Shown here piece after piece: positions 1 through 64,000 of a stretch of 64,000 nt of DNA. The position numbers were made by a program, and so were the translations under genes. Numbering within the stretch: the stretch's first letter is position 1; every line of letters begins with the position of its first letter. Under the pieces are notes generated by a model. It saw only the letters and a list, made by a program, of their open reading frames with translations. It was not told the origin of the DNA and searched no databases. This stretch comes from Synechococcus sp. MU1642 (GTDB taxonomy: Bacteria > Cyanobacteriota > Cyanobacteriia > PCC-6307 > Cyanobiaceae): contig NZ_VTKZ01000009.1 of assembly GCF_020514115.1 (NCBI RefSeq), positions 1 to 64,000 of the forward strand, given 5' to 3'.

Positions 1-102
1 GTAACCCAGTAAGGTCACGGGAAGAACACCCGTTGATAGGCTCTACGTGGAAGTCCAGTAATGGATGCAGCGGAGGAGTACTAATAGACCGAGGGCTTGA
101 CC
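1..102 (+). rRNA. rrl: 23S ribosomal RNA, 3' end (partial)
   Basis: This is the 3' end of the large-subunit rRNA; the 5' part lies outside the window. The segment contains the conserved terminal helix sequences (AGGAGTACTAATAGACCGAG just before the end). The 3' end is placed by eye at the GAGGGCTTGACC motif, so it may be off by a few bases. A 5S gene follows after about 110 bases of spacer, the normal rRNA operon order. Confidence 0.95.
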
Positions 103-197
103 AACATTTTGGTTCTTGCCTGAAGACTCATTTCTTTGTTAATTCAGACGTGCAGCGTTAGTTGCAGATCCTATGCAGTTCTCAGGGTTCACCCCTT

Positions 198-341
198 GAG
201 AATGTTTATCTATCCTGGTGTCCATGGCGGTGTGGTCCCACTCCGATCCATCCCGAACTCGGTTGTGAAACGCATCAGCGGCGACGATATTTGGGGGGTA
301 GCCCCCTGAGAAAATAGCTCGATGCCAGGTAAAACATTCTC
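198..341 (+). other. rRNA processing stem flanking 5S
   Basis: The 10 bases at 198-207 (GAGAATGTTT) are perfectly complementary to 332-341 (AAACATTCTC), so the precursor can fold into a stem that brackets 5S rRNA. Such stems are normally substrates for the ribonucleases that release 5S. The left arm can instead pair with TTCTCA at 179-184, giving a competing local hairpin over 179-202. The stem is seen in the sequence; the processing role is inferred from the rRNA operon context. Confidence 0.6.
213..330 (+). rRNA. rrf: 5S ribosomal RNA
   Basis: About 118 bases with the 5S hallmarks: a TCCTGGTG 5' strand pairing with the 3' GCCAGG strand, the central CCATCCCGAACTCGG loop B/C signature, and the GCGGCGACGATA segment before the loop E region. 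It follows the 23S end by about 110 bases and is followed by a rho-independent terminator, so it is the last gene of this rRNA operon. Ends were placed by pairing of the terminal helix. Confidence 0.95.
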
Positions 342-61201: not shown

Positions 61202-62368
61202 TCAGCGGATGTCGTAATGCAGCCATCGGCAGTCGATGCCGCCGTTGCTCACGGGGATCCGTTGCTCGGCTTTAAGTCGCAGGGCTCCCGTCAGGTTGCG
61301 ATTTCCGCTGAGTAACCAAAGCTTCCAGCCCTTGGCCTGGCCTTTGGCATAGTCGCCAAGCTCTCGATACAGCGCCTCCAGTTCCGCCTCATAGCCGATC
61401 CGTTGGCCGTAGGGGGGGTTGCACACCAATACCCCCGGCCCCTCCGGGAGGGGGTGATTGCTGAACGCGCCCGTGCAGATGCTTATGACTCCACTCAACC
61501 CGGCGGCTTCCACATTGGCCCGGGCCTGATCGGCAATGCTGGGATCCGCCTCGATCCCTAGGAGCAGGGGAAGGGTGAGGTCTCCCCTGCGCCGTTGCCG
61601 GGCGTGATCGACTTCCCTGTCCCAGAGCTCGGGCTGGAAATCGGCCCAGCCCTCGAGGGCAAAGCGGCGCTCCAATCCCGGGGCCTGTTGCAAGGCGGTC
61701 AGGGCGGCTTCGATCAGGAGCACGCCTGAACCACAGCAGGGGTCCACGAGGGGCTGGTGTCCATCCCAGCCCGTCAGGCGGATCAGCCCCGCGGCCAGGT
61801 TTTCTTTTAACGGTGCAGCTCCCATGGCGGCCCTGTAGCCACGGCGGTGCAGGCTGCCGCCACTGCCATCGAGGCTCAGCTGTGCTTCCCCGCGGCCGAG
61901 GTGGAGGTGCAGGGAGAGGTCCGCGTCGTCGAGATCAATGGAGGAACGCTCCCCCCAAAGATCCCGTTGTGCATCCACAATGGCGTTCTTGACCTGCAAC
62001 GCCGTGAAATGACTGTGGTTCAGCCCCGGGGCCGTTCCGGTCACATCCACCCGAAAACTCATCGATGGATGCAGCCAGCGTTCCCAATCGAGGGCTTTGC
62101 GGATGCCGTCGTAAAGGTCGTATCGGCCCTGGCAGGGGAAGTACGCCACCTGCCGTAAAAGTCGGAAGGGCAGTCGAGCCTGAAGGTGCAGTCGGTACAG
62201 GCAGGCCATGTCCGCTTCGAAGCTGACGGCACGCCTGCCAGGCTTCACGCCATGGGCCCCAAGGCCGCTGAGTTCTTCACCGCTGGCTGCTTCCAGGCCT
62301 TGGGGCACAACGGCAACAGCGGATAGCCGGTTTGTTCGACCCAAGGGCGTTGTGCTCCAGGCCACCAC
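61202..62368 (-). CDS. THUMP-domain RNA methyltransferase (RlmL/TrmN type)
   Basis: 388 residues, GTG start. The N-terminal part (~15-155) contains a THUMP-like region (VVPQGLEAASGEEL; VDVTGTAPGLNHSHFTALQVKNAIVDAQR). The methyltransferase domain follows: LVDPCCGSGVLLIEAA (SAM binding), LGIEADPSIADQARANVEAAGL and VCNPPYGQRIG (catalytic NPPY). It methylates guanine N2 in rRNA or tRNA. It is divergent from ssrA. Confidence 0.9.
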   Translation of the reverse strand: MVAWSTTPLGRTNRLSAVAVVPQGLEAASGEELSGLGAHGVKPGRRAVSFEADMACLYRLHLQARLPFRLLRQVAYFPCQGRYDLYDGIRKALDWERWLHPSMSFRVDVTGTAPGLNHSHFTALQVKNAIVDAQRDLWGERSSIDLDDADLSLHLHLGRGEAQLSLDGSGGSLHRRGYRAAMGAAPLKENLAAGLIRLTGWDGHQPLVDPCCGSGVLLIEAALTALQQAPGLERRFALEGWADFQPELWDREVDHARQRRRGDLTLPLLLGIEADPSIADQARANVEAAGLSGVISICTGAFSNHPLPEGPGVLVCNPPYGQRIGYEAELEALYRELGDYAKGQAKGWKLWLLSGNRNLTGALRLKAEQRIPVSNGGIDCRWLHYDIR

Positions 62369-62466
62369 TCCTGTCAGAATGACAGGGTCCGGCTTTGTCG
62401 GACTAGGTGATCCACACCAGTGTTTCGGACAGCGGTTCGATTCCGCTCAGCTCCATTCCCCCTCAC

Positions 62467-62473
62467 GGGGCTG
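62467..62473 (+). other. tmRNA 5'-piece acceptor strand (processing boundary)
   Basis: GGGGCTG here pairs with CAGCTCC at 62448-62454, forming the seven-base-pair acceptor stem between the two pieces. The segment 62456-62466 must be cut out to free the 5' end here and the 3' end at 62455. The pairing is seen; processing is known for permuted tmRNAs. Confidence 0.85.
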
Positions 62474-62538
62474 CAATGGTTTCGACGGGGCATGAGGAGG
62501 GTGACTGAAGCCTGCTCGGTGAGAGCAAACCCGTAACT

Positions 62539-62589
62539 GCGAACAACATCGTTCGTTTCTCCCGTCAAGCAGCCCCTGTTGCTGCCTGA
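62539..62589 (+). other. tmRNA tag-peptide reading frame
   Basis: GCG AAC AAC ATC opens a frame of 16 codons ending TGA, coding ANNIVRFSRQAAPVAA. The hydrophobic AA end is the ClpXP-type degradation signal. The sequence is of the marine Synechococcus/Prochlorococcus tag type. Confidence 0.93.
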
Positions 62590-62629
62590 CCCTTAGGGGA
62601 GATGGGGTGAAGTCAGCCTTATCACCCAA

Positions 62630-63715
62630 ATGACTACTGGGGGGTGGAAGTCCCCCTTCAACCATTCCACCGGAAGCGATCTCGGAATTGCGCCACAGGC
62701 GCCCGAGACCCATCCAGACAACGGATCCAGACAAATCCCGGCGGTCTTCGCTGGGCTGGATAAGGCCGAGGCGCTGGCGTACGTCAGCCGCCTGTTCGAT
62801 GCCGCTCAGGCCGGAGCGGTGCTCTGGGGGGACAAGCTCCTCCTGAAGCGATTCCTGGAGCAGTGCTCCCGCACGGGCTCGAAAGAGACCCAGGACGGCT
62901 ATCGGCGAGAGCTGCGGCACTTCGTCCGCTGGCGCGATCGGAACCACCCGCATCTGCACTTGCGGGAGCTGGATCCTGCGCTGGTGGATGACTGGGTGTC
63001 CCAACTGCGGGAACAAGTGACGGCTGGCGAACTCAAACCCCGCTCGTTCAACCGGCGGGTCAGCGCGGTGAGCGCCCTTTACCGATGGGCGTCGGAACCT
63101 ACGAGATCAGCTGTGACAGGAGTGCCGCGCAACCCAATCCCCCGAAGAACAGGAATGTCGGCACCAAAGCTGGCCAAACCGCTGGCTGAGTCTGATCTGA
63201 CATCAGTTCTGGGTGTTATCAGTGCCGCGAAGGTAAAAGGCTCGGCCATCGCAGCGCGTGACTACGTCATGGTCCGCGGGTCGTATTTGCTCGGGTGCCG
63301 TGTATCGGAGCTGTGCCGCCTGCGGTGGGAGGACATCGAACCGCTGGATGAGGGGGGCAACGTTCGCCTCCTCGGTAAGGGCAGCAAGCCCCGCACCATC
63401 CGCGTCAGCACCGACACGCTGAAGCTGTTCGAGTCCCTGGGCCGCGGCGAGCCAGGGGACTGGCTTTTCCCAAGTAATAAAAGGAATGGCCCATTGACCC
63501 GTCAGGCGGTGGCCGCTCGCATGGCGATGTGGGGCCGGGAAGCAAACGTCCGGCTCCACCCGCACCGTTGCCGTCACACCCATGCCACTCATGCGATTCG
63601 GCGGGGGGTGGATGTTTTCACGCTCTCAGCCACGCTCGGCCACAGCTCGACGGGAACCACATCTCATTACGTTCTTGCTGAGCCTGGTGAGAGTTCATCT
63701 CTCAAATTGGGTTGA
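62630..63715 (+). CDS. tyrosine recombinase (integrase)
   Basis: 361 residues. An N-terminal SAM-like core-binding domain (~70-160, WGDKLLLKRFLEQCSRTGSKETQDGYRRELRHFVRW) precedes the catalytic domain with Arg224 (GCRVSELCRL), Lys in LLGKGSKPRTIRV, His312-x-x-Arg315 (HPHRCRHTHAT), His338 (LGHSSTGTT) and nucleophile Tyr347 (SHYVLAEPG). All active-site residues are intact. The ATG lies at the 3' edge of ssrA, a common integration target, so this is probably the integrase of an island running to the right. No other early start is available. Confidence 0.9.
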   Translation: MTTGGWKSPFNHSTGSDLGIAPQAPETHPDNGSRQIPAVFAGLDKAEALAYVSRLFDAAQAGAVLWGDKLLLKRFLEQCSRTGSKETQDGYRRELRHFVRWRDRNHPHLHLRELDPALVDDWVSQLREQVTAGELKPRSFNRRVSAVSALYRWASEPTRSAVTGVPRNPIPRRTGMSAPKLAKPLAESDLTSVLGVISAAKVKGSAIAARDYVMVRGSYLLGCRVSELCRLRWEDIEPLDEGGNVRLLGKGSKPRTIRVSTDTLKLFESLGRGEPGDWLFPSNKRNGPLTRQAVAARMAMWGREANVRLHPHRCRHTHATHAIRRGVDVFTLSATLGHSSTGTTSHYVLAEPGESSSLKLG

Positions 63716-63802: not shown

Positions 63803-64000
63803 TTGCGACTGTTGAAACTACTCCTGGCTGCTTCAACTGCACTTGCACTATCTGTACCGGTGCAGGCTCATCATGGACCTTTTTCTCAAGAAAATAAGGT
63901 TGTGCATGATATGCATCTAGGTGTGACACGTTCTACTAACAAAGAAGGATCACTTACTGCCTATAGCATTAAATCGAAAGGTCTAGGGCGCTTGGTATTT
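63803..64000 (+). CDS. exported protein, N-terminal part (cut by window end)
   Basis: An open frame from TTG 63803 (or TTG 63812) runs to the window end without a stop, 66 codons. A signal peptide is clear (LLKLLLAASTALALSVPVQAHH), with likely cleavage after VQA. The mature part is polar. The base composition from ~63,880 on is distinctly AT-rich relative to the rest of the window, in keeping with recently acquired DNA behind the integrase. The family cannot be told. Confidence 0.55.
   Translation, partial: MRLLKLLLAASTALALSVPVQAHHGPFSQENKVVHDMHLGVTRSTNKEGSLTAYSIKSKGLGRLVF

Follow-up and report, generated by a model that had tools for sequence, protein, structure and literature searches.

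We found that the tyrosine integrase gene lying against the permuted tmRNA gene (ssrA) near the right edge of the window, the 64,000-base stretch of DNA analysed here, very probably comes from a family of small islands of marine and freshwater Synechococcus-type cyanobacteria. These islands would use one specific integration site, at which the permuted tmRNA ends on its 3' side, recombine there through a core with a 7-bp overlap, restore the tmRNA, and insert serially. Comparison of related genomes establishes, at the level of sequence, the site, its core sequence, its variability, the displaced copies, and the repeated insertion. The contig to which the window belongs (G000:C6) is 69,154 bases long, of which the window covers the first 64,000, and it is one of 22 contigs in a 2.1 Mb draft genome. 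It begins in rRNA genes (window 1-330: the end of a 23S gene, and a 5S gene), as expected when a contig breaks at an rRNA operon. The features discussed below are the following.

62371..62655, + strand: permuted cyanobacterial tmRNA gene (ssrA), from RF01851, RF04321, and ARAGORN
62610..62619, + strand: attL half-site AAGTCAGCCT on the left, chromosomal side of the core; its TCA is kept in displaced copies
62620..62626, + strand: inferred 7-bp overlap (crossover) TATCACC, from the start of identity and the inverted-repeat centre
62627..62636, + strand: right core half-site CAAATGACTA, island side, holding the first ATG of the ORF (62630), from the comparison of displaced copies
62630..63715, + strand: tyrosine integrase ORF, 361 aa as first listed, from PF00589, PF02899, and PHROG integrase
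62639..62656, + strand: 3' hairpin GGGGGG-TGGAAG-TCCCCC, island-supplied, possible terminator or RNA-end hairpin; last RF01851 helix, with paired changes
62712..62734, + strand: direct repeat ATCCAGACAAcggATCCAGACAA in tandem, a candidate for arm-type or regulator sites; none of 200 shuffles did as well

The permuted tmRNA gene and the adjoining integrase

The tmRNA gene was recognized by the Rfam model RF01851 (cyano_tmRNA) at 62371-62655 on the + strand, with 313.7 bits over the full length of the model (1-288). RF04321 matched the same gene with 147.9 bits, and ARAGORN placed a permuted tmRNA at 62366-62680 with the tag ANNIVRFSRQAAPVAA. The acceptor piece comes first, followed by the coding piece, which carries this tag and has two hairpins at its end. 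tmRNA genes are preferred sites for islands (PMC4383910). The ORF directly behind this one matched PF00589 (E=5e-28, 98 bits against a cut-off of 27), PF02899, and the PHROG 'integrase' family (E=7e-40), which, together with the full-length RF01851 match, confirms the original observation of an integrase at the 3' edge of a permuted ssrA. The protein is full length, with the tyrosine recombinase catalytic domain and the conserved residues R, K, HxxR, H, and Y (RVSEL, GKGSK, HRCR, LGHSS, and HYV in the translation). XerC and XerD provide the nearest solved structures and NCBIfam models. Their identity was excluded for the window's integrase because the scores of 125 and 117 bits were far below the equivalog cut-offs of 335 and 330; the window's integrase differs from them also in being variably present. 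No close relative was found in plasmids (best about 36%).

The ATG at 62630, from which the ORF was first listed, had been described as within a few bases of the structured RNA. This codon is not behind the RNA; it lies inside the tmRNA gene, within the right half of the attachment core. It was rejected as the integrase start since it is not conserved in frame among homologues: an in-frame ATG is often missing there, 5 of 12 homologues cross the tmRNA end in a different reading frame, and others have TTG at this position. Conservation of the protein begins near window position 62738. The alignments suggest that the true start is probably later, at CTG 62756 or GTG 62819, the former being an ATG in most homologues, within G[M/L]DKAEAL. 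ATG 62630 is probably not a start codon and would be kept because it is part of the RNA and of the att site.

The attachment core and its displaced copies

We scanned 34 genomes for the core pattern, allowing at most 1 mismatch, and found 36 places: 27 tmRNA ends, 8 displaced cores, and 1 on a contig that has no tmRNA. The reversed control pattern gave 0 places in the same 34 genomes, and a family-wide scan at 3 mismatches was discarded as too noisy. Every displaced core shares the strand of the tmRNA and follows it at a distance of 6-28 kb (one each in G002, G004, G006, G015, G024, and G025, two in G021). These copies begin precisely with TATCACCCAAWTGACTC, which forms the 3' strand of the final coding-piece hairpin. 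When 7 of them were aligned against the tmRNA copy from their own genome, agreement was 0/7 at position -1, 6/7 at position 0, and 7/7 thereafter, that is, from the first base of TATCACC on. To the left of the core, the displaced copies showed no relation beyond T, C, and A at -7 to -5. At offset -10, GAGTCA scored 37/48; other offsets averaged 11.4 and reached 24 at most. GAGTCA on the left and TGACTC on the right form an inverted repeat, with 10-bp half-sites around the 7-bp centre TATCACC. The whole core spans 27 bp (62610-62636) in a lambda-type layout, GAGTCA-n4-[TATCACC]-CAAA-TGACTC. Half-site inverted repeats around a short overlap are the core layout of tyrosine integrases, as in lambda-type sites. 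According to the RF01851 structure line, the core occupies the 3' strand of the hairpin with which the coding piece ends, outside the tRNA-like domain, and not the tRNA-like 3' end used by the usual ssrA islands. The att core had been predicted at the end of the coding piece, away from the acceptor stem, and the start of the relatives' displaced copies agrees with this. In the left flanks of displaced cores of G002, G006, G015, and G021, at about -52 to -64, we spotted by eye a common motif close to CTATGACTGGG, which is possibly a left-arm (P arm) site.

Downstream core copies could also arise as duplications of the tmRNA end through homologous recombination, with no integration involved, and the displaced copies do carry the hairpin and some flank. 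Yet every copy begins at the same base, at the inverted-repeat centre, next to unrelated left sequence that keeps the half-site, and in L128 and L130 an integrase stands directly behind the displaced core. The common start base refutes duplication, to which we give hardly any credence. Pieces of integrase were also detected farther down. In G002, one that is 96% identical lies about 12.6 kb from the core, others lie down the variable segment in G004, G013, G015, and G028, and remnants occur in G003, G006, G022, and G025. We read this as new islands inserting beside the tmRNA and displacing older ones, which then decay, and the compared sequences point clearly to the tmRNA tail as a re-used docking site for islands.

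In the mechanism that we propose, the integrase would bind the inverted repeat GAGTCA-n4 / n4-TGACTC and would presumably catalyse strand exchange across TATCACC, the 7-bp overlap, which lies in the hairpin at the end of the coding piece; the exact cleavage positions are those predicted from the comparison. The island would carry its own overlap, right half-site, and 3' hairpin, so that the tmRNA would be restored and could continue to function, and the old tmRNA 3' end would be moved to the far side as attR. Later islands would enter at the same place, pushing older islands away from the tmRNA, and the displaced islands would decay until core copies and integrase fragments remain.

Island tails among the relatives

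The integrase was found directly behind the tmRNA in 12 genus members (G000, G001, G003, G004, G013, G014, G016, G017, G021, G023, G024, and G028), with identities of about 57-100%, and was missing there from the remaining members with a readable site, about half (34 examined). The strain comparison that had been suggested as a check shows an integrase that is variable at the site. In an unbiased scan of 84,980 species genomes, we detected 10 relatives of the integrase, 8 behind a tmRNA end and 2 behind a displaced core, with freshwater Vulcanococcus among them. Chance adjacency is excluded, since the arrangement recurs in 12 genus members and since every one of the 10 scan matches has a tmRNA end or a displaced core in front of it. 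By name, the relatives are marine and freshwater Synechococcus-type cyanobacteria. In relatives, a variable segment of about 8-35 kb separates the core from a gene block that they share, with sulfotransferases and a NeuB-like protein. Three features of a tDNA-targeted island were found: an integrase beside an intact RNA gene, variable presence among relatives, and, in relatives, a displaced fragment of the RNA gene on the far side.

For 25 genomes, we compared relatedness in the upstream DNA with that in the 124 bases behind the core. The two identities were barely correlated, with a Mantel r of 0.13, and 78 of 2000 permutations were as high. G016 and G017 are 97.4% identical upstream and 73% in the tail; G017 and G023 are 74% identical upstream and 90% in the tail. 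Relatedness changes at the core, upstream and tail being discordant. This bears on whether the integrase could be a domesticated or fixed core gene that stands behind ssrA by coincidence, as the frequency of the adjacency in the genus might suggest. Many genomes are without an integrase at the site, including G022, the closest by its upstream gene (92% there, 77% in the tail), and such presence and absence refutes a fixed gene. The discordance just described, the integrase fragments farther down the segment, and NCBIfam XerC/XerD scores far below cut-off also stand against it, and we regard it as practically untenable. A lack of downstream repeats together with an integrase fixed in all relatives had been named as the outcome that would speak against an island; the relatives have the repeats, and their integrase is variable. 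Several relatives have tails of the same kind without integrase, so some of these islands may be non-autonomous or decayed. In G025 and G031 (L042 and L040), tails of this type with repeats and without integrase are followed by AAA_25 helicase-like genes, and these may be islands moved in trans or decayed.

Judged from the same comparisons, the DNA to the right of the crossover is evidently island-derived, restoring CAAATGACT and adding a hairpin. Among 39 copies of the hairpin stem, 30 have G-C at pair 2 and 9 have C-G there; pair 3 is C-G in 3, and pairs 4 and 5 are paired in all copies. This hairpin (62639-62656) may be a terminator or an RNA-end hairpin. A terminator scan at this position made no call, the T-run being weak here and in most copies, and folding of the tail gave no energy signal (z 0.16 and -0.27), which leaves the paired changes as the evidence for the hairpin.

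The tandem repeat lies about 91-93 bp to the right of the core in most sites (115-116 in two genomes), with a period of 12 in most sites and of 13 in the window. Its units differ among islands (CAGACAA, CACGCAA, CATCCAA, GCGAACA, CAGGACAA, and GCGGATAA): position, period, and a CAAA-like end are kept, and 4-5 bases vary from island to island. The repeat occurs also where the integrase is missing behind the tmRNA, which favours a role as DNA and argues against a coding repeat. The integrases of G000 and G003 are 95% identical in their conserved part, yet the repeats differ, with none clear in G003, which makes it unlikely that the repeat unit is read by the conserved body of the integrase. We tentatively suggest, with more doubt than belief, that the ~12-bp repeats are island-specific recognition sites, either integrase arm sites or regulator sites, which would let stacked islands with the same core tell themselves apart, while integrase-less islands could be moved in trans.

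The window's island and known elements

The window's island starts at 62620 and extends past the right edge of the window. A direct repeat to the right of position 64000 had been proposed as a check, and none was found there or across the assembly, which holds a single copy of the core when up to 2 mismatches are allowed. Behind the integrase the contig continues for 5.4 kb and stops at 69154, inside the segment, and the downstream gene block shared by the relatives (the right anchor) was not found in this genome. With no attR found in its own genome, integration at the window's site is deduced from the relatives, by analogy with which a normal attR would be expected. It is possible, though we think it rather unlikely, that the window's copy is a dead remnant, that is, that the family is as described and this island has lost its attR and cannot leave. 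The missing second core copy and the decayed islands common around the site would fit this, but the integrase ORF is full length with its catalytic set, and attR may simply be unassembled, since the contig ends inside the segment in an assembly of 22 contigs.

Behind the integrase, a 293-aa exported-looking protein is encoded, and then a small HTH-like protein of 118 aa (contig 65521-65877, L002 5521-5877), 64% identical to one in the island of G021. Its last ~20 codons (VACIRQLDHMTGTGYNSHRGH) are repeated directly at L002 8718-8933. Homologues are encoded in further tmRNA islands and also elsewhere in the genomes that carry these, a distribution that suggests a wider island family. These proteins (118-123 aa across islands) had no Pfam match and no PHROG match with known function, and the name of small terminase, given for a likeness seen by eye, was dropped for this reason. 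The cargo also includes a protein of 820 aa (contig 66211-68673, L002 6211-8673) that combines FG-GAP repeats with a bacterial Ig-like domain and, at its C terminus, a Hint domain. The island of G021 encodes a Prim-Pol plus VapE-like replication protein (L048 5341-7335, - strand) and a second, reversed integrase-like ORF (L048 8002-9309), which resemble phage satellites. A Cyano-2 sRNA (RF01702, 183 bits) lies at L130 4225-4427, in the tmRNA-island segment of Synechococcus sp. AG-670-B23. An integrase and, in G021, a replication protein of a kind found in phages and phage satellites would also suit a prophage. Against this, neither of two queries found a relative among 2.9 million viral contigs, matches in phage collections reached only about 25-31% identity, and no structural gene was recognised among the genes examined; the viral-genome relatives and structural genes of a prophage were not found. 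We consider a prophage very unlikely and keep to an island.

At base resolution and over many genomes, these results support the view that what attracts integrases is the 3' end of an RNA gene, and not tRNA-like structure alone. They also show that mobile DNA replaces the 3' tail of the tmRNA in these abundant aquatic cyanobacteria, and they offer a defined 27-bp site for integration tests in picocyanobacteria.

An exception to tRNA-like integration was reportedly described by Williams in 2003, with islands entering permuted cyanobacterial ssrA at its 3' end, which is not tRNA-like; the same work is said to have discussed att sequences as ssrA terminators for enterobacteria. That case and, by comparison with relatives, the window's island share integration at a non-tRNA-like 3' end made by gene permutation, and the phenomenon was, by that report, already known. 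Compared with that case, our analysis differs in covering many genomes and in giving a base-resolved core with its half-site inverted repeat. It further adds serial accretion, the replacement of the tmRNA 3' hairpin by one that the element carries, and 12-bp repeats next to the core that are specific to each element. The 2003 work is cited in PMC4482086 and PMC11915505. The usual islands of tRNA and tmRNA genes likewise have a tyrosine integrase, a target restored by the island, a displaced far-end fragment, and tandem arrays, but they target tRNA-like sequence, whereas here the target is a hairpin of the mRNA-like coding piece. The tycheposons of Prochlorococcus were reportedly described by Hackl et al. 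in 2023. Like the window's island, they belong to picocyanobacteria, have variable cargo, and place a tyrosine recombinase next to an RNA gene (PMC10872708). They are described at seven tRNA genes, whereas the window's island stands at the tmRNA.
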